Notes under the pieces: generated by a model | What the model was told of the DNA's origin: nothing | What the model saw: only the letters and a program-made list of their open reading frames with translations | Databases searched by the model: none | Shown: in pieces, positions 6,224 to 27,138 of the stretch | Position numbering within the stretch: the first letter of the stretch is position 1 | Layout of the letters: each line of letters starts with the position of its first letter | Virus record (IMG/VR): IMGVR_UViG_3300021960_000363 | Location: 1-28,934 of that record | DNA: 28,934 nt | Direction: 5' to 3' (one strand) | Source: a virus | Program-made: the position numbers and the translations under genes

Positions 6224-7708
6224 ATGAGCCTAAAGATTGACCCCGCGGAGCTCGACGCGCTGATTAAGGCGACGCGCCGCCCAGAGACACAAGAGCCCGA
6301 GCCTAAGAGCTACGACCTCAACCCCTACGACCTCGACAACCTGAGCGCGGGCGCGGGGGGCTACCTCAGCGGCGACACGCACCAGGGCACCACAACGGGG
6401 CTGAGCTATGCAGCCCTCCGCGCGCTCTCGCGGGTGCCGCTGATCAGCGCGATCATACAGACACGCATTAACCAAATAGCCGAGTTCGCGCGCCCTCAGC
6501 CCGACCGTTACAGCCCGGGCTTTGTGATACAGCGCAAGGACAGCAAAGAGCTAGACGACGCGACGCGCGCGCAGATAGACGCGCTCAGCCGGTGGCTGAT
6601 GAGTTGCGGCGACGCCGACCTCATAGGCGTGACGACGCTAGAGGCGCTTGTACGCCAGGTAATGCGCGACAGCCTCACCTTTGATCAAGCATGTTTTGAG
6701 GTGATCCACGGCGCGGACGGGCTGCCCGTCGCAATTAAGCCCGTGGACGCCTCGACGATACGCCGCGCCGCCGTGAGCGCTGAGGAGCGGGCGAGCGGGC
6801 GCCGCGACCCCGCGCGCGCTGCCTTTGTGCAGGTGATAGACGGGCGAGTAGTGGCGCACTTTACGGCGCGCGAAATGGCGTGGGGCATACGCCGCCCGCG
6901 CGCGGAGCTCGCAGCGCACGGCTACGGCTTCCCAGAGCTTGAGGAGGCGAGCAGCACGATTATAGACATAGTGCACAGCAAGGCCTACAACAGCGCCAAC
7001 TTTACGCACGGGCTACACCTGAGCGGGATACTTGCCGTTAAGAGCAAGATGAGCCCCGCGCTGTTTAGGGCGTTTAGGCGTGAATTCTACTCTATGCTCA
7101 GCGGGCCCGCCGGCGCGAAGAAAACGCCCATTATTCAGCTCGACCCCGAGCAAAAAGAGGAGGTTAGCAGCGTTAACCTCTCAAATAACAATAGAGATAT
7201 GGAATTTAGCGCGTGGCTCAACTTCCTCATTAAAGAGGTGTGCGCGCTCTACCAGCTCGACCCCGCGGAGATAGGTTATCTGTTTGGGAATGAGGGGCAG
7301 AGCAACAGCCTAAACGCGAGCGGGCCGAGCGAGCGCATACTACACAGCCGCGAGAAGGGGCTAAGGCCGACCCTCCGCGCGCTTGAGGGGTGGCTGAACA
7401 GGTGGGTAATAGACGCTTTCGCACCTCACCTAGAGATCTCTTTTGTGGGCATAGAGGCCGACAGCGAGGAGCGGCGCGTGAAAGCGACCGCAGACAAGGT
7501 GAAGGCCTTCCTCACGATCAACGAGGCGCGCGCCGCCTTTGACCTGCCCCCGCTTGAGCAGGGCGGCGACCTCATACTAGATAGCGCGTGGATCAACCAC
7601 CAGAGCCAGCAGGGGGGCGCGGGCGCGGACACGGGCGACGAGGGCGAGGAGGACATAGACCCCGCCGATTATTTTGAGCGCTCAATCCGCATAAAGGCGC
7701 GCTTTTAG
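6224..7708 (+). CDS. Portal protein
   Basis: 494 residues, ATG 6224 with GGAG at 6211-6214; stop TAG. The length and motif order match dodecameric portal proteins of HK97/Mu-type phages. LISAIIQTRINQIAEFARPQ (about residues 75-94) matches the N-terminal wing. DSLTFDQACFEVIHGADGLP (about 148-167) and PVDASTIRR match the core. HLSGILAVKSKMSP and LDPAEIGYLFGNEGQSNSLN (about 345-364) precede the stem and clip helices. The portal nucleates prohead assembly, is the DNA entry channel and docks the terminase. It is separated from terL by ~5.8 kb of fibre and lysis genes and from the remaining head genes by the RNR-helicase insertion, which is an unusual order. Confidence 0.92.
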   Translation: MSLKIDPAELDALIKATRRPETQEPEPKSYDLNPYDLDNLSAGAGGYLSGDTHQGTTTGLSYAALRALSRVPLISAIIQTRINQIAEFARPQPDRYSPGFVIQRKDSKELDDATRAQIDALSRWLMSCGDADLIGVTTLEALVRQVMRDSLTFDQACFEVIHGADGLPVAIKPVDASTIRRAAVSAEERASGRRDPARAAFVQVIDGRVVAHFTAREMAWGIRRPRAELAAHGYGFPELEEASSTIIDIVHSKAYNSANFTHGLHLSGILAVKSKMSPALFRAFRREFYSMLSGPAGAKKTPIIQLDPEQKEEVSSVNLSNNNRDMEFSAWLNFLIKEVCALYQLDPAEIGYLFGNEGQSNSLNASGPSERILHSREKGLRPTLRALEGWLNRWVIDAFAPHLEISFVGIEADSEERRVKATADKVKAFLTINEARAAFDLPPLEQGGDLILDSAWINHQSQQGGAGADTGDEGEEDIDPADYFERSIRIKARF

Positions 7709-7822: not shown

Positions 7823-9835
7823 ATGCTCGCTGAGTATGTTTTCAAATCCAAATACGCCCGCCACAACGCAGCCGCGGGGCGCCGCGAGACTTGGCGCGAG
7901 GCGGTAGAGCGCACCGCAGCCATGCACCGCGCGCGCTTCCCCCACGAGCTCGCGCAGGTGGCCGAGGTGCAGGACGCGCTAGAGGCGCGCCAGATACTCC
8001 CCTCTATGCGCGGGCTGCAATTCGCCGGCGCGGGCGTGACCCGTAAAAATATGAGGCTCTATAACTGCACCTCAAGCTACTGCGACCGCCCGCGCTTCTT
8101 TGCGGAGGCGCTTTGGCTGCTGCTCGCGGGCTCAGGTGTGGGCTTCAGCGTACAGCGCCACCACATCGCGCGGCTACCCTCGATCAAGCGCCCGCGCGAC
8201 CGCGCCGAGGTCTATACAATACCCGACTCTATCGAGGGGTGGGCAGAGGCTACACACCGCCTCTTTAGCGCGTACATGGAGCCCGACCGCGGGCGCCCCG
8301 TATTTGATTATACGCTGATACGCCGCGCGGGCTCGCCCCTCAGCGTGGGCGGAACGGCACCAGGCCCCGCGCCCCTCAAGCAAGCGCTAGAAGGGATTGA
8401 GGACATATTGAGAGGCGCCATAGGGCGACGCTTGCGCCCCGTGGAAGCCTTTGACGCTACAATGTTCTTAGCCGACTGCACGCGCACCGCGGGCACCAGG
8501 CGCAGCGCGACCATCGCGCTCTTTAGCGCAGATGATCGAGAGATGATCGAGGCCAAGACCGCCGCGGGGTGGTGGGAGACACACCCGCAGAGGGCCCGCG
8601 CTAATATCAGCGCTGTTATCACGCCGGACACGCCGCGCGAGGTTTACGCGGGGCTATTCGCAGCGGCGCGCGCGTATGGCGAGCCAGGGCTAGTGTACCT
8701 CGACTCGACCGAGTGGGCGGTTAACCCTTGCGTCGAAATTTTAATGTGCCCGACGCTGATCAAGCGCGACGGCGAGGCGGTCGAGCGCTACACCCTCGAC
8801 CTACTCGACCCCGCGCGCCGCGCCGAGAATGAGGCGCAGGGCTACAGCTACGCGAGCGGGTGGAGCGCTTGCAACTTGACCAGCGTAAATGTGGAGGCGG
8901 CGCGCGACGGCGCCCACCTCGCGGAGCTCGCGCGCCTCGCCTCGCGCTTAGGCACCTACCAGGCAGCCTACACGGACACGGGATATTTAGGGCTAGTGAG
9001 CCGTGAGATTATCGAGCGCGAAGCGCTGCTAGGTGTGAGCCTTTGCGGTATGGCCTCGCGCCCCGACCTCACGCTAGACGCGGACACGCTACGCGCCGCG
9101 GCGCTCGCCGCCGTCGAGGAGAACCGCGAGACAGCAGCGCGCGTAGGTATCCGCCAGGCGTCGCGCGTGACTTGTGTTAAGCCCGAGGGCACCGCGAGCC
9201 TAGTTTTAGGCACCTCAAGCGGGATACACCCCGCACACGCGCGCCGCTACCTCCGACGGGTGCAAGCGAGCGAGGCGGAGCCCGTATTTAGAGCGTTTAG
9301 AGATGTTAACCCCCACGCCGTCGAGCGCTCAGCGTGGGGCAGCGATTACGCCGCAGTATTCGCTTGTGAGGGGCGCGGAACGACGCGCGACGAGCTCAGC
9401 GCGCTAGACCTACTCGCGCGCGCCCGCCTCGCGCTGAGCGCGTGGGTGAAGCCAGGCACGGCGCGCCCCTCGCGCCTTGTGGGCGCGTGCCACAATGTGA
9501 GCCTCACGGCGAGCGTTAGACCCGATGAATGGGAGGCCGTGGAGGCTGATCTATGGGAGCACCGCGCAGCCTATCGAGGCGTAAGCCTACTAGGCGCGAC
9601 GGGTGACTATGATTATCCTCAAGCGCCTTTTCAGGCGATCTACACGGACGAGGAGATTGACGCGCAGAACCCCACGCCAGAGCGGCGCGCCGAGATGATT
9701 AAGGCGCGCGAGATGTGGGCGCTGCTCAAAGCGACCTCGCGCCCCGTGGACTATGAAGCGCTCGACGAGGCCGCGGACACGACCGCGCCCCTAGCCGTGG
9801 ACGCTTGCGCCGGTGGTATGTGCGAGCTCAGATGA
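7823..9835 (+). CDS. nrdJ: Adenosylcobalamin-dependent (class II) ribonucleotide reductase
   Basis: 670 residues from ATG 7823. Reduces ribonucleotides to deoxyribonucleotides through a thiyl radical generated from adenosylcobalamin, supplying dNTPs for phage replication. Conserved elements appear in order: PSMRGLQFAGAG (about residues 53-64), YNCTSSY with Cys82 as the substrate-reducing cysteine partner, GSGVGFSVQRHHI, PDSIEGWAEA, NPCVEI with the likely thiyl Cys303 and Glu305, CNLTSVN, and PEGTASLVLGTSSGIHP from residue 454. The C-terminus ends CAGGMCELR; Cys662 and Cys667 form the usual shuttle pair. The lack of an ATP cone, the length and PSMRGLQFAG favour the monomeric RTPR-like subgroup. 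No small subunit or glycyl-radical site is present. It sits inside the head module and overlaps the helicase gene by ATGA, so the two are coupled. Confidence 0.93.
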   Translation: MLAEYVFKSKYARHNAAAGRRETWREAVERTAAMHRARFPHELAQVAEVQDALEARQILPSMRGLQFAGAGVTRKNMRLYNCTSSYCDRPRFFAEALWLLLAGSGVGFSVQRHHIARLPSIKRPRDRAEVYTIPDSIEGWAEATHRLFSAYMEPDRGRPVFDYTLIRRAGSPLSVGGTAPGPAPLKQALEGIEDILRGAIGRRLRPVEAFDATMFLADCTRTAGTRRSATIALFSADDREMIEAKTAAGWWETHPQRARANISAVITPDTPREVYAGLFAAARAYGEPGLVYLDSTEWAVNPCVEILMCPTLIKRDGEAVERYTLDLLDPARRAENEAQGYSYASGWSACNLTSVNVEAARDGAHLAELARLASRLGTYQAAYTDTGYLGLVSREIIEREALLGVSLCGMASRPDLTLDADTLRAAALAAVEENRETAARVGIRQASRVTCVKPEGTASLVLGTSSGIHPAHARRYLRRVQASEAEPVFRAFRDVNPHAVERSAWGSDYAAVFACEGRGTTRDELSALDLLARARLALSAWVKPGTARPSRLVGACHNVSLTASVRPDEWEAVEADLWEHRAAYRGVSLLGATGDYDYPQAPFQAIYTDEEIDAQNPTPERRAEMIKAREMWALLKATSRPVDYEALDEAADTTAPLAVDACAGGMCELR

Positions 9836-11826
9836 ACCCGACGCGCCCCGCCCCGACCATAGACCGCCCGCCGCTATGGACGGCGTTAGACTTCTCAGCG
9901 CTCAGAGGCGCAGGGGCGCAGGACGCCCTAGAGCGCTTAGGCGTGCTCAGGGCGCTAGGTTACGCGCACACGCGCCAGAGCGCCCTAGCGCTGTTAGAGA
10001 GAGCGGGGCGAGGGGTGAGGCTCAGCCCCGCCGAGGAGGAGCGCATAGCGCGCTTAGCGACGCGCTTAACGGATATGTGGGCGGCGTGGACAGACGCAGA
10101 GCGCGATGAGTTTAGCGCCGCCTACCTCGACCACGCGCGACAGCCTCACGCGGCGCGCCCCGTATGGGTGGAGGCCTACCAGGGCACGCCCGAGGCGCTC
10201 ACCTCGCCTTATACGCCGCACCTCTACCAAGCGCGAGCGATAGCCTTTAGCCTCGCGCACCCGCGGGCGCTGCTCGCGCTTGAGATGGGGCTAGGAAAGA
10301 CGCTCATAGCGCTCTACGCGGCGCATGAGCTACTAGCGCGGGGCGAGGTGGCGCGGGTGATCATCGCGGCGCCTAAGAGCGCGCACGGGGCATGGAGGAA
10401 GCATTTAGAGATGAGCGCGCGCCCCTCTCAGGTACTCACAGGGGCGACGCCCGAGAAGCGCGAGCGGGCCTATACGGCGCTCTATTACGGGCGCGTTGAG
10501 CTGTTAGTGATCACCCACCAGACACTAGCGCTCGATTACGCTTACTTTGAGCGCATACTGAGCGCGGCGCCGGGGCTGCTGATACTCGACGAGGCGCACA
10601 AGGCTAAAGCGCAGGACGGACAAATAGCGCGGGCCTTTGAGGCGCTCGCGGAGCGCGCCGCGCGGGTGTTAGGGCTCACCGGCACGCCGGCGCCTAACCG
10701 CGTTGAGGACTTCTATTTTGTGATCGACCGCATAGCGCCAGGGGCGCTAGGTGATTATCAAGACTTTTGCGCCCGATACACTTACAGAGTTTATGACGCT
10801 TGGAGCTCAACGCAGGGCGCGAGCTACACCGCGGGGGCGCTGAGAGCAGACACGCTAGGCGAGCTGCACGAGCGCCTTAAGCGCGTGCTGTTTGTGCGGA
10901 CGGCGACAGACCCCGACGCCAGGCTAGACCTGCCCCCGCGCGTTGACCTCGCGCCGCGCGTGGAGCTCGACGAGATACAGAGGCGCATACTGCGAGCGCT
11001 CGCGCACGCCCAGATAGAGCGCGAGGAACACCCCGACGCGCACGCCGAGGCGCTGAGCGGGGCGCGTGGACACCTCGCGCAGATAGCCGCGGAGGGGGCG
11101 ACGGCTAACGCAGCGGCTCTAGGCGTGAGGATCGAGCAGCTAGGCATAAGCCCCGCGCTATTCTCACCCGCCTTTGCACGGCTCGCGCCCGAGTACGAAG
11201 CGCCTAAGCTAACGCTGATAGCCGACCAAATAGCGGCGCACCTAAGCGCAGACCCCGACGCGGGCGCCGTGCTGTTTTGCGAGTACACGGGCGCGCTTGA
11301 GCTCGCGCGGGCTGCACTTGTGCGGCGAGGTGTGCCCCCCGACCTCATCGCGCTCTACACCGGCGACACGAGCCCCACCAGGCGCGCCGAGATCGAGCGG
11401 GGCCTTAACAGCGGCGCCCTCCGCGTAGTGTGTGGACAGACGCGGGCGCTTGAGACGGGGGCAAACCTACAGGAGCGCGCCGACTTTGTAGCGCACCTCT
11501 CGACGCCCTGGAGCCCCGACACGCTCGCGCAGAGTACCGCGCGCGTTTACCGCCAGGGGCAGCGGCGCCCCGTTAAAGTATTAAGACCCTCAAGCACGCC
11601 GTTAGAGGAGGCAAAAAACGCCGCTCTAACAGCTAAGATAATGCGCGCCGCCGCCCTCACGGGGGCGCTCACCGACGCCGACGCGCGGATTATCGAGACA
11701 AGCGCCGACCCCAGAAAGCGCAGAGCACAACGCGCCTTGTTTGAGCGCGGCGCCTACTCTTATGCTATCATTACAGAGCTTTTAGACCTACCCACACCGC
11801 GAGAGGGGGGGCCGTGTACCGCATAG
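9832..11826 (+). CDS. SNF2-family (superfamily 2) DNA helicase/translocase
   Basis: 664 residues from ATG 9832, which overlaps the RNR stop as ATGA; an in-frame ATG at 9805 lies within the RNR gene and is not preferred. Both RecA-like lobes are present: EMGLGKT (Walker A, Lys156), DEAHKAK (Walker B, Asp253-His256), LTGTPAPN (motif III), then in lobe 2 GANLQERADFVAHLSTPWSP (motif V) and QSTARVYRQGQRRP (motif VI, arginines 571 and 574). The Q..R..R.GQ motif VI is diagnostic of SNF2/SWI2 enzymes. These use ATP to translocate on double-stranded DNA. About 130 residues precede the Q/Walker region, without a domain I recognise. Role in the phage is unknown: replication restart, transcription or displacement of host proteins from incoming DNA are possible. 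Confidence 0.92.
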   Translation: MNPTRPAPTIDRPPLWTALDFSALRGAGAQDALERLGVLRALGYAHTRQSALALLERAGRGVRLSPAEEERIARLATRLTDMWAAWTDAERDEFSAAYLDHARQPHAARPVWVEAYQGTPEALTSPYTPHLYQARAIAFSLAHPRALLALEMGLGKTLIALYAAHELLARGEVARVIIAAPKSAHGAWRKHLEMSARPSQVLTGATPEKRERAYTALYYGRVELLVITHQTLALDYAYFERILSAAPGLLILDEAHKAKAQDGQIARAFEALAERAARVLGLTGTPAPNRVEDFYFVIDRIAPGALGDYQDFCARYTYRVYDAWSSTQGASYTAGALRADTLGELHERLKRVLFVRTATDPDARLDLPPRVDLAPRVELDEIQRRILRALAHAQIEREEHPDAHAEALSGARGHLAQIAAEGATANAAALGVRIEQLGISPALFSPAFARLAPEYEAPKLTLIADQIAAHLSADPDAGAVLFCEYTGALELARAALVRRGVPPDLIALYTGDTSPTRRAEIERGLNSGALRVVCGQTRALETGANLQERADFVAHLSTPWSPDTLAQSTARVYRQGQRRPVKVLRPSSTPLEEAKNAALTAKIMRAAALTGALTDADARIIETSADPRKRRAQRALFERGAYSYAIITELLDLPTPREGGPCTA

Positions 11827-12977
11827 ACATTAACGGCACTCGCGCAGCGCTTAGCGACCCTCTAACGCTGTGGGAGATCACGCGCCAGCTATTGAGCCAC
11901 CGCGGGCGCCGCGGGCCTATCAAGATCAGCGCGGGCGGGGTGAGCGGCGCGGTAGACCTCGAGCCCGGCGCGCCAATAATGCCCATCATCGACCTACTCA
12001 AAGCGCGAGGGCGTGGGGGCGAGGTCGAGCTAGTGCGCGAGCTCGCGGAGGAGATGGGCGCCCGCTTTGAACGCCGCGCCGACACCCTCGCCGACGACCT
12101 CGCCGCGCTACTGCTCGACGCGGCGCCCGCGCCGGTGCAGAAGGCGATAGACACCGACGACGACGGGCGCAGCCACCCCGCCAAATACTTTACAGGGCTC
12201 GACGCTAAGACGCGCGCCGCGCGTGAGCGGGTGATAGAGGCGCGACAAGATGAAGGGATAACGGGGCGCGAGCTCTACGCCGACCTACCAGGCGACGAGG
12301 AGCCCACGCGCCCATCGCAGTACACGCGCACAGAGATAGCCGCGCGGGTGCGCGATGAGATGAAGGGCCCAGGTAAAGAGGCCTTCTTAAGAGCCGCCGC
12401 CGAGGTGGGAGGGGTGCGCCGCGGGCTGCTGAGGCAGGTTTACGACCGCGGGCTAAAGGCGTGGGCGACCAGCGGACACCGCCCAGGCGCGACCGCTGAG
12501 CAGTGGGCCATAGCGCGCGTTTATAGCTTCCTCTCAGGCGGCAAGACGCGCACGACAGCGGACGCCGACATAGCGCGCCAAGCGGACGCCGACGCGCTCA
12601 GCAAGGCGGGGCTGCCCCCAGGGCTCACGCGCCCCCCCGAGAGCGTAGCGCGCGAGGCGCGGCGCGGGCTCGCGCTGAGGCGGAAGCACAAGCGCGGAGG
12701 GCTGAGCACTCAAGAGGCGGGCGCCCAGGGCATAGGCTCAGGCGTGCAGCGCGCTGTTAACCTCGCGCACCGCGACCCCCTCAGCGTGGACACGCTCAAA
12801 ATGATGAGGGGCTTCTTTTCCAGGCACGAGCGCAACGCGCGGGGCACTCACGCCGACGGGGGCCCGAGCGCGGGCGCTATCGCTTGGCTGCTGTGGGGAG
12901 GCGACGCGGGGCGCGCGTGGGTGAACCGCACGCTAGACACCATCGAGCGCCTAGAGGCGCAGGAGGCCAAGAATTGA
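11814..12977 (+). CDS. Multi-domain phage accessory protein (DUF-type domains, PAKYFTGL / GGDAG motifs)
   Basis: 387 residues from GTG 11814, overlapping the helicase by 13 bases; a seven-G run just upstream may serve ribosome binding. I recognise three small recurring phage modules without known chemistry. SHPAKYFTGLDAKTRAARER with a following PSQYTRTE (about residues 120-180) is a short basic module. GHRPGATAEQWAIARVYSFL with SGGKTRTTADADIA (about 220-258) is the second. MMRGFFSRHERNARG and PSAGAIAWLLWGGDAGRAWV (about 325-375) form the third. Such modules turn up fused to phage head proteins, proteases and polyvalent proteins in other phages (from memory of the families). The first ~100 residues are unrecognised. 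Translated in a chain with the DdrB-like gene downstream; probably a virion or ejected protein. Confidence 0.75.
   Translation: MYRIDINGTRAALSDPLTLWEITRQLLSHRGRRGPIKISAGGVSGAVDLEPGAPIMPIIDLLKARGRGGEVELVRELAEEMGARFERRADTLADDLAALLLDAAPAPVQKAIDTDDDGRSHPAKYFTGLDAKTRAARERVIEARQDEGITGRELYADLPGDEEPTRPSQYTRTEIAARVRDEMKGPGKEAFLRAAAEVGGVRRGLLRQVYDRGLKAWATSGHRPGATAEQWAIARVYSFLSGGKTRTTADADIARQADADALSKAGLPPGLTRPPESVAREARRGLALRRKHKRGGLSTQEAGAQGIGSGVQRAVNLAHRDPLSVDTLKMMRGFFSRHERNARGTHADGGPSAGAIAWLLWGGDAGRAWVNRTLDTIERLEAQEAKN
12961..12976 (+). promoter_or_regulatory. Ribosome-binding site and TTG start deciding the 816-aa gene
   Basis: AGGAGG at 12961-12966 is followed eight bases later by TTG 12974-12976, which overlaps the stop TGA (12975-12977) of the gene before. 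The resulting N-terminus MIFSDLIKAAQHKYIKRVP fits the family. An ATG further upstream at 12884 would add ~30 residues of out-of-frame-like sequence lying wholly within the previous gene. Confidence 0.75.
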
Positions 12978-15424
12978 TATTCAGCGACCTGATCAAAGCC
13001 GCACAGCACAAATACATTAAGCGCGTACCGAAGGCGGGCGGTAAGGGCTATCAATACTTTTACAGCGAGACGGGGGGCGGGGGCGTCGCGCTAGAGCAGC
13101 ACATGAAAGAAAAGGCCGCTTTTAGGCTCACCCATAAGGGCCAAGAGGGCCACTTTCACATCACCGCAGTTAACGGCGACCTGGTGAGCGTGAAGCACGA
13201 CGAGAGCGGCGCGACTGCTGAAATGACACGCGCGGAGCTCGCCGCGCTGCTGAGGGCGCACCACGCGCCAGCGCTGAGCGCCCATGTAGAGCGCGCGGAG
13301 AAGCGCGCCGCGCAGGCCGCCTCACAGCTCGCCGCGGCTAAGCGCGCCGCGGGCATGAAAGAGGCGCCCGCGCCCGCACCCGCGCCGGCGCCCGCAGCCA
13401 AGCGCGAGAGAGAGAACAATTTTGAGACAATGCCAGAGAGCGAGGGCGCCGGCTACACGGCCGTGGACAAAGCGCTAGGCAAGGCGGCGCGCGCCGCCCT
13501 CCGCGCTGATCTCAGCAAGGCGCTAGTGGACGGCGACGCCGCGCGCGTTGAGCAGCTCTATATGCGCCAAGACGCGGACGCGGCGCACACGGGCGACGCG
13601 CCCGTTGACGCGCTTATAAGGGGGCTCATCTACGCGGCGCCCGCTTCACAGGACATAGACGGCAGCCGCAGACGCCAGGCGCGAGGGAAAGAGCGCGCTG
13701 ATATGCGGAAGGCGCTTGAGGCGGCGACCGCGAGCGGCGCGCTACGCGAGACGACCACAAAGAACGGCGCGAAGGTTTACACGCCAGGGCCCGCGAGCGC
13801 CTCGCGCTCACCTAATAGCGCGTGGAGCCTCGCGCTACTCGGCGGGCGCTATGAGTTCACCTTTGACGACTTCTCACAGCCCAACGAGCACAACGGCACC
13901 CCCGCGACCTCTTACGAGGAGCTCAGCGAGGAGGATCAGCGCGAGCCCGCGCAGAAGGACGCCGCAAAGGTCAACGACCTACTCGACCAGATTAGCGCGC
14001 TTGTAAAGGCTAACCCCGCCCTCGCCAACGACCCCCGCGTTATCGCGCTGCTAGGCTCCACGGGCGAGCCTAAGCGCGAGGGGCGCGAGATGGAGATTAT
14101 TCTAGCGGGGCTGCCAGGACAGAGCGAGCGCCAAAAGGCGCGCTATGTGCTCATCGAGGCGGGCGACGCGATACCTTCACACGACCCGCTCAGCTTCTCG
14201 CCGCGCGCGGACTACCCCGAGGGCATACAAGAGCGCGCCTATCACCAGGACAAGGGCGAGCAACTAAAGGTGTTGCGCAACGCCTCAGCCTTTAACCCCG
14301 ACTTTATGATTAACACCAACCCCGACGCCACCAACGGCGCGCCCATCATCACCCCCGAGGGCGTAGTGTTAGGCGGGAACAGCCGCACAATGACACTACA
14401 GCGCGTTTACGCCAACCAGCCCGAGCACGCCGCCGCCTACAAGCGGAAGCTGAAAGAGGAGGCCGCCGCCTTTGGCTTCTCGCCCGCCGACATAGACGCT
14501 CTAAAGGCGCCTATGCTAGTGCGCGTTTACGACCCGCCGGCGGACGATACAAAGACGCTCGCCCAGATAGTGCGCGCCGCGAATGTTACTAAAATGCAAG
14601 GTATGGAGGGCCGCATTAAGGGGCGCGCCCTCGCCTCTCAGCTCAGCGAGGACACGCTAAGAACGCTCAAGAGCACTCTAGCGCGCGTGCCTTCTGATTA
14701 CTCAATCAACCGCTTCCTCACCAAGCCGAGCGGCGCGCTTACCGACTTCCTCACAGCTCTCAGGCGCGACAAGATCATCAGCGACCAGAACGCCGTTGAA
14801 TATATCCGCGAGGACGGAACGCTAAACGCCAACGGGCGCGAGCTAGTAGAGCAAACGCTGATAGGCTATGTGCTCAGAGACGAGGCGCTCTTAGCAAGCC
14901 TCGATTACTCCACATACGAGAACCTAACCATTGCCGTGGGCAAGCTCGCCGCCCAGGGGCTGAGCGAGCAGACGCGCAAGAGCCTAGCCGACGCCGTGGC
15001 GGTCTTTAATTACGCGCTCTCAAAGGACATTATCAAAGCACGCCAGACGCCCGAGAAGCGCGACGCGAATATTAGAGAAATGCTGTTTGGGCAAAGCACT
15101 TTTGACTTTGGAGAGCAGCGCGGCGAAACCCTCGCCTCCGCGCGCGATATTCGCAGCATGATTAACCGCGTGAGCGGCGACCCTCTAGCTAATAGCTTCC
15201 TAAAGCTTTTTGTGCTGAACCCCACGCCGCGCGCGCTTGAGGACAGCATTGACGAGTTTATCAGCCTTACGGAAGCGCCCGAGGTGGAGGATTTTTTTGC
15301 AGCGCCCCCGCTAGACTATAACGACGCCGCCGCCAAGCTAAGCGAGGCGCTCGCGGACAAGCACAGCCTACCCGACGAGGCGCGCGGCGCCTATCGCTCG
15401 ATAGACGACGCACAAGGAGCCTAA
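12974..15424 (+). CDS. Polyvalent-type protein with DdrB/ParB-like domain
   Basis: 816 residues from TTG 12974. The N-terminal module (about 1-115) begins IFSDLIKAAQHKYIKRVPKA and GKGYQYFY, a basic motif frequent at the start of phage and mobile-element proteins. A Pro/Ala linker (PAPAPAPAPA, about 133-142) and an unassigned middle follow. From about 410 the sequence matches the ParB-like domain seen in phage P1 DdrB and other polyvalent proteins. Its elements are SFSPRADYPEGIQERAY, FNPDFMINTNPDATNGAPII and EGVVLGGNSRTMTLQRVY (GGNSR at residues 467-471), then a helical region with VTKMQGMEGRIKGRALASQL. Such proteins are packaged and ejected with the genome and act on DNA soon after entry, often against restriction (known for P1). 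Whether this one is a nuclease, an NTP-binding protein or structural is not decided by sequence. Confidence 0.8.
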   Translation: MIFSDLIKAAQHKYIKRVPKAGGKGYQYFYSETGGGGVALEQHMKEKAAFRLTHKGQEGHFHITAVNGDLVSVKHDESGATAEMTRAELAALLRAHHAPALSAHVERAEKRAAQAASQLAAAKRAAGMKEAPAPAPAPAPAAKRERENNFETMPESEGAGYTAVDKALGKAARAALRADLSKALVDGDAARVEQLYMRQDADAAHTGDAPVDALIRGLIYAAPASQDIDGSRRRQARGKERADMRKALEAATASGALRETTTKNGAKVYTPGPASASRSPNSAWSLALLGGRYEFTFDDFSQPNEHNGTPATSYEELSEEDQREPAQKDAAKVNDLLDQISALVKANPALANDPRVIALLGSTGEPKREGREMEIILAGLPGQSERQKARYVLIEAGDAIPSHDPLSFSPRADYPEGIQERAYHQDKGEQLKVLRNASAFNPDFMINTNPDATNGAPIITPEGVVLGGNSRTMTLQRVYANQPEHAAAYKRKLKEEAAAFGFSPADIDALKAPMLVRVYDPPADDTKTLAQIVRAANVTKMQGMEGRIKGRALASQLSEDTLRTLKSTLARVPSDYSINRFLTKPSGALTDFLTALRRDKIISDQNAVEYIREDGTLNANGRELVEQTLIGYVLRDEALLASLDYSTYENLTIAVGKLAAQGLSEQTRKSLADAVAVFNYALSKDIIKARQTPEKRDANIREMLFGQSTFDFGEQRGETLASARDIRSMINRVSGDPLANSFLKLFVLNPTPRALEDSIDEFISLTEAPEVEDFFAAPPLDYNDAAAKLSEALADKHSLPDEARGAYRSIDDAQGA

Positions 15425-22854: not shown

Positions 22855-24492
22855 ATGCCGAGCACCCTAACCCTAACCGGACTACCCGCCACCGCGCGCC
22901 CCGGTATCTATGCGCGCATAGACGCGAGCGCCCTTAGTGGCGGGGCCCCCGATAGCGGGCGGCTCGCGCTTGTGGGCGACTTCCCCACCTTCCCCACCGC
23001 CGAGCCCGTAGAGTTTACCTCACGGCGCGCGATGACCGCCTACGACAGCGGCGACAACGACCTAGCGCAGCTCGCCGCGCTTGGCTTTAGCCCCTCCAAC
23101 GACCCCGCAGCGAACCGCGGCGCCTCAGCGCTGCTAGTGGTGAACGCACGCGAGACTTGCACCGCGGCGAGCATTGATCTAGGGCCCGTTATCCTCACCT
23201 CGCGCATTTACGGCCCGCGCTCTAACCGCCTCACCTCTACGCTCACGATTAACGGCACCAGCTACAGCCTCACGCTAAACCGCGGGGGGCTGAGCGAGAG
23301 CTTTAGCGCGACGAGCTCGCCGCTATTCAACCTCGCCAACGCTACAGGCTCCAGCGTCACGCTCACCATCGCCGCGGGCGTTATCACCCTTACGGGGGGC
23401 GTGAACCTCACCATAGACAGCAACGAGGCGCCCGACCTCCGCGCCGCTATCGCGCTGCTCGACCAGGTGGAAGGGCTCAGCGCGACCCTTATAGAGCCCT
23501 CGCTGATCACCCTCGCGGAGCTCGATTACAGCACGACGACCATAACCACAGGCGCAAACGGCGACATCTCAGCGCCGGGGCTCGCTCTCGCGCGCGCCCT
23601 CAGCGCCTCGCGCCTTGTGAGCGTGGCGCAGGACACCACGAGCGCCGCGGGCACGCTGAGCGCGGGCACCGAAACCGCCACGGGCGGCGCGCAGGGAAGC
23701 GCGCTAGGGTGGGCCGACGCCCTCGCCGCTATTGAGGCTCAGAGCGTGCAGCTTGTTTGTTTGTTCACCACCGACGGCGCCGCGCAGAGCCTACTAGCGG
23801 GGCACCTCACGGCCGCCGCCCTCGCGGGCTATGAGCGCCAGGCGTTTAGCGCTGTTCCCTCGACGAGCAGCCTTAGCGCCGCGCGCACCGCCGCCGCCGC
23901 GATCAACTCGCCAGGCGTGGCGCTCGCCGCTCAGAGCGTGAGCCTCTACAACCCGCGCGGGCGCCTAGCGAGCCTCGACGCCCGTTATACTGCTCTTATG
24001 CTCGCGGGCATGAAGGCAGGGAGCGACATAGGCGAGCCTCTCACCCGTAAGCGCCCCGCGATCCTCTCAACCTCTCAGGTATGGGACACGCACGCGGACA
24101 TTGAGGCAGCGCTACGCGCGGGGCTTTGCGTGATCACCCGCGACCAGGTGGGGCCGCGCGTTGAGCGCAGCTTGACAACTTGGCTTGAGGACAATAACCC
24201 CGTTTACACCGAGGTTAGCGCTTATGAGAGCGTCTTGTTTAGTGTGCGCGACCTCCGCGCCGCCCTCGCTGATCAGATAGGGCGCCCGACTAAGGCTAGC
24301 CAGATGAGCCTTATTGAGAGCCGCGTTAACGCGCGCCTCGCCGCACAGGTGAAGGACGGGCGCATTAAGGCCTATCAGGGCGTGACCCTTGAGGATATGG
24401 GCGACCAGGTGGCGATCTCTTACCAGGTGGCGCCCGTCGAGCCTCTAAACTTCATAGCGATTACTGCAATCGCGCAGCGCCTCAGCGCCTAA
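22855..24492 (+). CDS. Tail sheath protein
   Basis: 545 residues, ATG 22855, with CAGGAGG upstream. RPGIYARIDASAL near the start (about residues 15-27) is the usual sheath opening, followed by LALVGDFPTFPTAEPVEFTS. A beta-rich inserted domain (about 100-220) is Ser/Thr-rich. The C-terminal domain is the most conserved part in the family: VITRDQVGPRVERSLTTWLE, TEVSAYESVLFSVRDLRAAL, DQVAISYQVAPVEPLNFIAI. Sheath subunits form the contracting outer tail that drives the tube into the cell, so this gene marks the phage as a myovirus. It has its own promoter-like element, fitting a high-copy protein. ATA codons are present, unlike in the capsid gene. Confidence 0.93.
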   Translation: MPSTLTLTGLPATARPGIYARIDASALSGGAPDSGRLALVGDFPTFPTAEPVEFTSRRAMTAYDSGDNDLAQLAALGFSPSNDPAANRGASALLVVNARETCTAASIDLGPVILTSRIYGPRSNRLTSTLTINGTSYSLTLNRGGLSESFSATSSPLFNLANATGSSVTLTIAAGVITLTGGVNLTIDSNEAPDLRAAIALLDQVEGLSATLIEPSLITLAELDYSTTTITTGANGDISAPGLALARALSASRLVSVAQDTTSAAGTLSAGTETATGGAQGSALGWADALAAIEAQSVQLVCLFTTDGAAQSLLAGHLTAAALAGYERQAFSAVPSTSSLSAARTAAAAINSPGVALAAQSVSLYNPRGRLASLDARYTALMLAGMKAGSDIGEPLTRKRPAILSTSQVWDTHADIEAALRAGLCVITRDQVGPRVERSLTTWLEDNNPVYTEVSAYESVLFSVRDLRAALADQIGRPTKASQMSLIESRVNARLAAQVKDGRIKAYQGVTLEDMGDQVAISYQVAPVEPLNFIAITAIAQRLSA

Positions 24493-24505: not shown

Positions 24506-24934
24506 ATGCCAGCGAACAAAGCAATCAGCGGCGCCGCTTGTAAGGTCTATCTAGCCTCCACGGGGCAAGAGGTGGGGTGGGCTACGGGCGTTGATGTGAC
24601 GGAGACGATCCAAAACGCCCGCGTCGATGTTATAGGCGACCTCGACTCTCAAGAGATTACGCCGGTGCGCCGCGCCGTCACGATGAGCGTAGCGGCTATG
24701 CGAATTCAGCGCGCGCCGCTTGAGGCGCTAGGGGTGTGGAGCCAGGGCGACACGGCGACCATACTAGCGACGCCCGCGCTAGACTTTGCCGTGATCGACG
24801 ACACCACCGGCGAGACGCTTCTAACGCTGCAAGGGTGCAAGCCCTCAACGCGCACCTTCAGGCTAGACGCTCAGAGCCTTTTTTCTGAAAATCTTAGCTT
24901 TGATGTGCGCCGCATTATTTACCCGACCGCCTAA
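24506..24934 (+). CDS. Tail tube protein
   Basis: 142 residues, ATG 24506, with AAAGGAGC upstream. Starts MPANKAISGAACKVYLASTG and contains EITPVRRAVTMSVAAMRI and a LFSENLSFDVRRI end. These fit the beta-barrel tube proteins of contractile tails (XkdM/gpFII type). Its length and its place directly after the sheath are typical. Hexameric rings of this protein form the inner tube through which DNA passes. Confidence rests on both position and sequence pattern. Confidence 0.85.
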   Translation: MPANKAISGAACKVYLASTGQEVGWATGVDVTETIQNARVDVIGDLDSQEITPVRRAVTMSVAAMRIQRAPLEALGVWSQGDTATILATPALDFAVIDDTTGETLLTLQGCKPSTRTFRLDAQSLFSENLSFDVRRIIYPTA

Positions 24935-24999: not shown

Positions 25000-25446
25000 A
25001 TGTTTGCACACCTCAAGACCTCGCCCACCTCGCCCACCCCGCCCGCGCCAGAGCCGCCGACGGGGCTAGAGCGCGTGCTAAACATCGAGGCGGAGCTAGG
25101 CGGACAGGTGCGCCGCGCTACTATCACATCGCGCGTTATGGATATGGGCGCGAAGATAGCGCGCGACCGCCTCGCGGCTGAGCTCGCGGCGCCCTCGCGC
25201 TTTGATGACCTGCCCGCAGCGGCGCAGCTCAGGATATGGGCCGCCGCTACGCTCACCTACAGCCTCACCGACGCGCCCGCGTGGGTGGGTGAATGGGCGG
25301 GGCTCTATGACCCCCTCTTATTCGCGCTGTTTGAGGAGGTGACAGCGCACGAGCGCGCATTTTTTCGCGGACACATGGAGGAGGGCGCAGATACAGCGCC
25401 AGAGCCCCGCTTGGAAATTAAGCGCCTCTCTTTACCCGCGCTTTGA
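25000..25446 (+). CDS. Tail assembly chaperone, short form (gpG-like)
   Basis: 148 residues, ATG 25000, AGGAG upstream. After a Pro/Thr-rich start it is helical (GLERVLNIEAELGGQVRRAT, SRFDDLPAAAQLRIWAAATL, DPLLFALFEEVTAHERAFF). It sits between the tube and tape measure genes, the universal place of the tail assembly chaperone pair, which keeps the tape measure protein soluble while tube subunits are added. The zero-frame product ends CTT TGA (25441-25446). The downstream coding region in the +1 frame runs on to 25636, so a longer frameshifted form is predicted. Chaperones are not part of the mature tail. Confidence 0.8.
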   Translation: MFAHLKTSPTSPTPPAPEPPTGLERVLNIEAELGGQVRRATITSRVMDMGAKIARDRLAAELAAPSRFDDLPAAAQLRIWAAATLTYSLTDAPAWVGEWAGLYDPLLFALFEEVTAHERAFFRGHMEEGADTAPEPRLEIKRLSLPAL

Positions 25447-25447
25447 G
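25441..25447 (+). promoter_or_regulatory. Probable +1 programmed ribosomal frameshift site (CTT TGA G)
   Basis: The last codon and stop of the chaperone read CTT TGA. A +1 slip (skip T 25444) makes the next codon GAG 25445 and continues open for 63 codons to TGA 25634-25636. CUU-UGA is the shift sequence of the RF2 gene prfB. The -1 frame stops at 25494. No internal Shine-Dalgarno-like stimulator as in prfB is visible. The exact slip point could lie elsewhere in the overlap, since the +1 frame is open from 25343. Confidence 0.68.
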
Positions 25448-25636
25448 CCCTGCCCCCTCGACCCAACGCGCCCCAACGCGCACCCCGCCCAGGTGATCGA
25501 GCGGGGGCTAATGGAGCTCAGCGAGGAGGCTTTTAACGCGGCGCAGCCCGCCCAATGTGCTAAAATCAAGGCTAATCAGCCAGCTTTAACGGGCGTGGCG
25601 TGGATCGACGCACAAGAGCGCGAGAGGTACAAATGA
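25445..25636 (+). CDS. Frameshift extension of the tail assembly chaperone (gpT-like)
   Basis: Sixty-three codons in the +1 frame of the chaperone, starting EPCPLDPTRPNAHPAQV, then ERGLMELSEEAFNAAQ and ALTGVAWIDAQERERYK, up to TGA 25634. The codons have the same style as the neighbours. No plausible independent start with a ribosome-binding site exists: the first candidates are GTG 25493 and ATG 25511, both without a good site. Read through from the chaperone it gives a 211-residue fusion analogous to lambda gpGT, whose T part binds the tape measure protein. The stop overlaps the tape measure ATG (ATGA at 25633). Confidence 0.7.
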   Translation, partial: EPCPLDPTRPNAHPAQVIERGLMELSEEAFNAAQPAQCAKIKANQPALTGVAWIDAQERERYK

Positions 25637-27138
25637 GCTCAGAGGTAACAATCAAGGTAAACCTCGACGAGACGGGCGCAATTAAGGACATTGAAACCCT
25701 AAAGCGCCACCTCGACGACCTCGCGCGCCGCGCGTCGAATATCCCCACGGGCGCCGCACCCGCCCCCGCGCCAGGCGCAGCGCCAAGCGCAGCACCAAGC
25801 GCAGCGCCAAGCGCAGCGCCAAGCGCAGCGCCAAGCGCAGCGCCAAGCGCAGTACCAAGCGCAGCACCAGGCGGGAAGCCAGGCGATACACCCCCCAAAA
25901 AAAAGGCGCCCCCTTACGCGCAAGCGATAACGGGCCTAATGGGGCAGAGCGCGGGCGGCGTGATCAGTACAATAGGCGACCTCAGCAAAAACATTCCTTT
26001 TTTTGGCATACCCGCGAGCATTTATTTAGGCATTAAGGGGGCGAGCCTCCAAGCGCGCGAGGCGCTCGCGGGGCAGGCCGCAGGGCTAGAGGGGCTAGAG
26101 GCGACTCTAGCGGGCGCTGTTGATATGGGCGGCGAGGTAACTAAGACCGCCGCAGAACGCGCCGCCGCCTCTATCGCCTCGCTTGGCTTTGGAGGAGCTG
26201 AGGCGCGCCAGCTTATGAGCTCCACCGCGGGGGCCTTTGGGCTCGCGCAGACAATGAGCGACCTAGAGGGCACGCTAGGCGACCTCGCGACCGCTCAAAA
26301 GGCGGGGCTGAGCCCGCAGATGATCAGCAGCCTAGCGGGCGCTATCGCCCAGGCGGGCACGGGCGCCGACACTATAGGCGCGCGTGAAGCGTACAACCTC
26401 GCTTTTCAAATGCGTAACCTCGCCGAGACGGGGCTAGACCTCCGCGGCGCGGGCGTTAATCGCTTCCTCGCAGGTATGCAGAGCGCTATCGACACGCTCG
26501 CGGGGCAAGGTATCACCACGCGCGGCGAGGGCCTCGCGGCGACCACGCGCGCCGTGGCGGGTGCTACGGGGCGCACGGGGCTTAGGCCCTTACAGATCAC
26601 CCAGGCGCTAGGCGGCGCAGCGGGGGGCGCCCGCGCGGGCTTTGCGGGGCAGTTTGGAGGGCTAGTAAGCGCCGCGATACAGGCGGAAGCGTTTAGCAGA
26701 GCGCGCGACCCCCTACAGGCGCTGCAAATCATGGAGCAAATGCAAGCCGACCCGCGACAGGTGCAGACCGCCCTTAAGCGCCAGCTAGGCGGAGAGGGCG
26801 CCGCGCTAGGGCTCGCCTCGATCTCAGGCATAGGCGCGGGCGAGGCGCGCGACCTCGCGGGCGCCACACTCAGGGGGGGCGACGCGCTCGCGCTTGGAGC
26901 TCGACAGACGCGCGCGCAGGTCGAGGCGGGGCTAAAGGTGAGCGCAGCCCAGGCGCTGAGCGACCAGGCGCTAAGCACCGAGGCGCGGGCTAATGAGGAC
27001 TTACTAGTACAGCTCACGACAATAAGCACCGATATGAAAAAAGCCGTTTTAGCCTTCACCAACACGAGCGACCAAATAACCGCAATAGCGAGCGCGCTTG
27101 TAAAGACGCTAGACATTTTAGCCAGGTTTACGCCGTGA
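25633..27138 (+). CDS. Tape measure protein
   Basis: 501 residues from ATG 25633, which overlaps the frameshift product's stop and has GAGAGG upstream; an ATG 33 bases earlier would run through the chaperone extension. MSSEVTIKVNLDETGAIKDI and TLKRHLDDLARR give a helical start. A linker of repeated PSAA units follows (about residues 47-78), then hydrophobic segments (VISTIGDLSKNIPFFGIPAS) and a long Ala/Gly-rich helical body (LAEGTLGD-like, ARQLMSSTAGAFGLAQTMSD). Tape measure proteins set tail length at about 1.5 angstrom per residue, so about 75 nm would be expected: a short tail for a myovirus. The absence of a peptidoglycan-degrading domain is noted. Position between chaperone and hub is diagnostic. 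Confidence 0.85.
   Translation: MSSEVTIKVNLDETGAIKDIETLKRHLDDLARRASNIPTGAAPAPAPGAAPSAAPSAAPSAAPSAAPSAAPSAVPSAAPGGKPGDTPPKKKAPPYAQAITGLMGQSAGGVISTIGDLSKNIPFFGIPASIYLGIKGASLQAREALAGQAAGLEGLEATLAGAVDMGGEVTKTAAERAAASIASLGFGGAEARQLMSSTAGAFGLAQTMSDLEGTLGDLATAQKAGLSPQMISSLAGAIAQAGTGADTIGAREAYNLAFQMRNLAETGLDLRGAGVNRFLAGMQSAIDTLAGQGITTRGEGLAATTRAVAGATGRTGLRPLQITQALGGAAGGARAGFAGQFGGLVSAAIQAEAFSRARDPLQALQIMEQMQADPRQVQTALKRQLGGEGAALGLASISGIGAGEARDLAGATLRGGDALALGARQTRAQVEAGLKVSAAQALSDQALSTEARANEDLLVQLTTISTDMKKAVLAFTNTSDQITAIASALVKTLDILARFTP
25771..25866 (+). repeat. Eight tandem 12-bp units coding for PSAA/PGAA
   Basis: Eight units of the consensus CCAAGCGCAGCG (25771-25866), with variants at the first (CCAGG) and in the 7th and 8th (AGTA, AGCA endings). 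In frame they code for the tetrapeptide P-S-A-A (PGAA first; PSAV in the 7th). They lie in the N-terminal linker of the tape measure protein and could change in number without a frameshift. Confidence 0.95.

Follow-up and report, generated by a model that had tools for sequence, protein, structure and literature searches.

The window analyzed here (the whole 28,934 nt of IMG/VR virus record IMGVR_UViG_3300021960_000363) very probably encodes the tail assembly chaperone pair G and GT of a contractile-tailed phage, with the long form produced by a +1 slip at TTT CGC (25363–25368). Sequence and comparison with homologues showed a conserved second frame, a conserved site, and a domain boundary.

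Gene map and protein models

The chaperone gene sits between the tail tube gene (24506–24934) and the probable tape measure gene (ATG at 25633). Its 0-frame ORF has 148 codons (25000–25446) and terminates with CTT TGA (25441–25446). The +1 frame is open from 25343 (preceding stop at 25340) to TGA at 25634–25636, and the ATG of the next gene overlaps this TGA as ATGA. The next stop in the −1 frame is at 25494. A slip is possible at 35 codons of overlap between the 0 and +1 frames, not just at the last sense codon. A previous sequence-only reading had reported the CTT TGA end and the −1 stop at 25494, and both were confirmed. It had also described a coding +1 extension reaching the tape measure start; the extension is open, coding, and conserved as described, but it has 89 codons from 25367 rather than 63. 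The features are as follows.

22855–24492, + strand: tail sheath protein (contractile tail); PHROG 279 tail sheath, 5.6e-43; Pfam Phage_sheath_1, 2.9e-7
24506–24934, + strand: tail tube protein; PHROG 985 virion structural protein, 1.3e-12; tblastn
25000–25446, + strand: tail assembly chaperone, short form (gpG-like), 148 aa; ORF, homologues, AlphaFold, Foldseek, position
25360–25362, + strand: TTT codon preceding the shift codon, in the E site at the slip; TTT, TTC, or TAC among relatives
25363–25368, + strand: predicted +1 frameshift site TTT CGC (UUU_CGN); conservation, substitution phase, other phage groups
25367–25636, + strand: +1-frame extension (T domain), 89 codons and TGA; conserved in relatives, fused translation, AlphaFold
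25000–25365 joined to 25367–25636, + strand: predicted long form GT, 211 aa; fused translation
25441–25446, + strand: CTT TGA, end of the 0 frame, ordinary terminator; in 6/14 homologues, without Shine-Dalgarno
25633–27138, + strand: probable tape measure gene; position and ORF, identity from synteny only

The tblastn matches of the tail tube protein were annotated tail tube or major tail proteins. The tape measure ORF matched no Pfam family and had one weak match, a PHROG of unknown function. Near its start lies a 12-bp tandem repeat (25768–25873, 8.8 copies) encoding PSAA repeats, and in the relative L001 another Pro/Ala-rich linker takes this place. Elsewhere in the window, genes for a B12-dependent ribonucleotide reductase-like protein (7823–9835), an SNF2-type helicase (9805–11826), and a ddrB-ParB domain protein (12971–15424) are placed between the portal gene (6224–7708) and other head genes. 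The contig of the closest relative, L011 (VGTA01000003.1), was binned in a Deltaproteobacteria metagenome-assembled genome, which hints, if weakly, at the host.

AlphaFold models were made separately for G and for the extension. For G, pLDDT values were 82–93 at residues 21–120 and below 50 at residues 126–148. The model is ordered to about residue 125, and the 0-frame tail beyond it is disordered. The last G helix (residues 104–122) stops at the second Phe of the shift site. The extension was modeled as six helices with a mean pLDDT of 77.7. These models suggested that the frameshift exchanges a disordered tail for a helical domain. G itself matched nothing in Pfam or PHROG. In Foldseek searches, its fold matched two BFVD models annotated as tail chaperones, from Bacillus phage JL and Lactobacillus 521B, with a probability of 1.00, and the match to the HK97 chaperone in the PDB (2ob9) was weak (E 1.6).

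Conservation, selection, and alternative explanations

Homologues were searched with the chaperone, tail tube, sheath, and extension as queries. The set comprised close (L001, L004, L005, and L006) and distant (L017–L023 and L087–L090) homologues; the extension alone as a query found no relative among phage records. TTT-C at the position of 25363–25366 was invariant in 14/14 homologues. It was followed by CGN in 12 of them and by CAY or CAR in the other two, and the site variants were TT[TC] TTT CG[CA], TAC TTT CGC, TTT TTT CAT, and TTT TTT CAA. The last two, from distant relatives, count against the proposed signal in that CGN is not absolute; the A-site requirement may be CRN instead. Where the +1 peptide T-W-x-R-A-(Q/K/R) starts, the 0-frame protein reads F-R in all homologues but two, which have F-H or F-Q. 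The codon right after TTT-C is the first of the conserved +1 peptide, ADTW.RAQ...EPCPLDPTRPN. The +1 frame is closed 14–23 nt upstream of TTT in 10/14 homologues and open downstream in all, and the −1 frame closes after 5–22 codons in the 14. The second frame is overlapping, conserved, and reachable only via a frameshift, as expected of a chaperone G/GT pair.

Codon differences were compared in five alignable sequences, and the counts ignore shared ancestry. Upstream of the site, there were 219 synonymous and 70 nonsynonymous differences in the 0 frame. From the site to the 0-frame stop, the synonymous and nonsynonymous counts were 16 and 49 in the 0 frame, versus 47 and 23 in the +1 frame. 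For the first 13 codons past the site, they were 1 and 30 in the 0 frame, versus 23 and 10 in the +1 frame. The synonymous phase flips from the 0 frame to the +1 frame at TTT-C, 26 codons (78 bases) before the stop. This flip indicated that the ribosomes that matter to selection are already in the +1 frame right after TTT-C. Neither CTT TGA nor CCC C (25405) can then be the main site, and a separate gene with its start at 25493 or 25511 was excluded as well. In-frame TTT CGN occurs twice in the 9186 codons of the window, and about 0.007 is expected by chance in the overlap, taken as a 34-codon zone. After the other TTT CGC in the window (4779), the +1 frame stays open for six codons.

The sequence-only reading had placed the shift at CTT TGA itself, as a prfB-type +1 slip paced by RF2, with a yield that could depend on termination efficiency late in infection. 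CTT TGA is present in the window, the four close relatives, and the distant contig L088, and the +1 frame is open across it. It is, however, missing from 8/14 homologues; the 0-frame ends of these are TCT TGA, CCT TGA, GCT TGA, TTG TGA, and TTG TAG. The stop position is probably dictated largely by the +1 peptide (F/L)-EPCPLDP. No Shine-Dalgarno sequence stands 3 nt upstream of CTT, where the window reads AGCGCCTCTCTTTACCCGCG, and TGA is followed by G instead of C. A tRNA moving from CTT to TTT would re-pair at two of three positions, and one moving from TTT to TTC would re-pair fully. Another window gene (403–726) also terminates with CTT TGA, so the motif is not distinctive. As +1-frame selection already acts 26 codons upstream, a prfB-type slip, with its 63-codon extension, is barely credible. 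The G/GT pair and the shift to the +1 frame survive from that reading, but its site and its mechanism do not. The homologue alignment kept the +1 extension and not CTT TGA. With the shift placed upstream of the stop, RF2 competition and a yield tied to late termination found no support. The predicted tryptic junction peptide becomes AFFADTWR instead of one across ...LPAL-EPCPL....

Two other places in the overlap could slip as well, TTT TTT and CCC C, and count against TTT CGC being the only candidate. CCC C (25405–25408) is a fully re-pairing tetranucleotide, and CCC is a known +1 shift codon in Listeria phage PSA. Yet CCA or CCG replaces it in L019–L023, and the 13 codons upstream are already under +1-frame selection, making a +1 slip there most improbable. 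A Mu-like −2 slip on TTT TTT (25360–25365) would reach the same frame with one additional Phe. The run of six T is found in the window and in most relatives of its family, and in the window the P-site TTT would re-pair perfectly after such a slip. The corresponding bases are TTC TTT in L017, L019, and L021 and TAC TTT in L088, and the ST4-like, Herelleviridae, and halovirus sites described below mostly have TCN or another codon before TTT and no T run. A −2 slip requires the two bases ahead of TTT to re-pair, as they can in the window but not at sites with TTC, TAC, TCC, TCT, ACC, ACG, AAG, or CGA as the preceding codon. These codons favor a +1 slip throughout, as judged from sequence, and leave a −2 slip very unlikely. 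The extension might also be a separate gene, as both GTG 25493 and ATG 25511 are in frame and a G-rich stretch precedes the latter. Neither start is conserved in the family, though, and both are preceded by about 42 conserved +1 codons, with no ATG, GTG, or TTG among them in the window. Separate initiation, which the sequence-only reading had named as its own possible refutation, is extremely unlikely.

The same junction in other virus groups

With the tail tube of the window as the query, Aeromonas phage ST4 and related phages were reached. In these ST4-like myophages, a +1-frame extension annotated as a separate hypothetical protein follows the chaperone, and the joint is TCC TTT CGC or similar. 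Profile comparison of the G proteins of the window family and the ST4-like group detected no significant sequence similarity. The ST4-like set comprised 39 unique genes, taken both from phages and from viral contigs (L036–L076, L012, and L029–L033). The Phe codon at the site was TTT in 39/39, all reading TTT CGN, whereas elsewhere in the same genes TTC outnumbered TTT 104 to 54. The codon before TTT was TCN in 31/39, which is close to the influenza context UCC_UUU_CGU. The Arg codons at the site were CGA (17), CGC (15), and CGT (7). CGA accounted for 44% at the site versus about 10% of the Arg codons in the rest of these genes, an enrichment that would fit a slowly decoded A site.

In ten Herelleviridae phages, the second ORF is also in the +1 frame, and the junction is TTT CGN, or TTT CAA in two. 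In six of the ten, the overlap is 17 nt and leaves 6 possible slip codons, among which TTT to TTC alone re-pairs fully. The phage K junction reads AAC TCC TTT CGT TAC TAA, again with 6 possible slip codons. Haloviruses HSTV-2, HF1, Serpecor1, and HRTV-8 have TTT CGC AGA. Across the groups, TTT CAT or TTT CAA replaces TTT CGN at four loci: L089:3994, L090:3994, L100 (SIOphi), and L104 (Alsa_2). Agrobacterium phage Milano was considered as an extra +1 case and rejected; its joined coding sequence is as long as a −1 shift would make it.

The +1 extension is annotated as RNA polymerase beta subunit or RNA polymerase (phrog_1316) in phages K (L093:1187-1783), Revolver, SAC12B, A9, P59, and Alsa_2. 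The K extension matched the PHROG named RNA polymerase beta subunit and also phrog_4988 (fused tail chaperone) at profile positions 135–307, and the K G protein matched phrog_4988 at positions 5–138. No Pfam family matched the K extension. Its polymerase name looks like an annotation error on this sequence evidence.

Taken together, UUU_C followed by CGN (sometimes CAN) is likely a general +1 chaperone signal in a large set of contractile-tailed bacterial and archaeal viruses. We also consider it probable that the joint shared by the window family, the ST4-like phages, Herelleviridae including phage K, and haloviruses is the prokaryotic equivalent of the PA-X signal of influenza and has been overlooked because annotators call two separate genes.

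Proposed mechanism and relation to known systems

We infer the slip itself, its +1 and not −2 direction, its rate, and its role in tail assembly as follows. Most ribosomes would read 25000–25446 and make the 148-aa G protein. In a minority, tRNA-Phe on UUU (25363–25365) in the P site, with CGC in the A site, would move one base and re-pair on UUC (25364–25366). Translation would then go on in the +1 frame with GCG (25367) GAC AC... until the stop at 25634, giving the 211-aa GT, in which an 89-residue helical domain would take the place of the disordered 0-frame tail. By analogy with lambda, G would coat the tape measure and the T part would recruit the tail tube. The ATGA overlap suggests coupling to tape measure translation. 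One point against the mechanism is that CGC is a common codon in the window, which gives no obvious reason for a hungry A site. Downstream RNA showed no significant fold (z = −1.0 and −0.2).

Programmed +1 frameshifting is known for few bacterial genes, and UUU_CGN has been documented mainly in eukaryotic viruses. For forward frameshifts, according to the PRFect paper, a general motif has yet to be identified (PMC10885494). Several distant phage groups sharing this joint would offer a bacterial system that is natural, easy to test, and suited to the study of P-site +1 slippage, and which as far as seen has no stop codon at the site, no Shine-Dalgarno sequence, and no RNA structure. It would also correct the annotation of common phages, such as the phage K extension labeled RNA polymerase beta subunit. 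We found no report of a UUU_CGN chaperone frameshift in bacteriophages in a literature search that covered few subscription journals, and such absence is not proof.

UUU_CGN is the +1 signal of influenza A PA-X, UCC_UUU_CGU, for which the shift was shown experimentally (PMC3498833), and a UUU_CGN +1 shift has been inferred for plant amalgaviruses (PMC5052127). In both, as proposed here, UUU in the P site moves to UUC with CGN in the A site, and no stimulatory structure is needed. The phage K site has the same nine bases as the influenza signal. The ribosomes there are eukaryotic, however, and the genes are unrelated. With prfB, the release factor 2 gene, the locus shares a +1 frame and the chance presence of CTT TGA; it differs in lacking a Shine-Dalgarno sequence, in having UGA-G, in the motif being unconserved, and in selection placing the shift upstream.

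Tail chaperones mostly use a −1 shift, Mu uses −2, and HSTV-2 very likely uses +1 (PMC5009743). Lambda gpG/gpGT and Mu likewise have a short and a frameshift-extended chaperone just upstream of the tape measure, but their slips (−1 and −2) and slippery sequences are different. The closest match is the HF1 group of haloviruses, for which TTT-CGn was proposed for the tail chaperones of six viruses (PMC7230728; HSTV-2 in PMC5009743). Gene position, +1 direction, and TTT-CGn are as in the window. The hosts are archaeal, and the site is two codons before the stop versus 27 here; there as here, the signal was proposed from sequence. The locus described here adds a member to a kind already proposed in haloviruses; of greater interest is how widely that kind is spread among bacteriophage groups.
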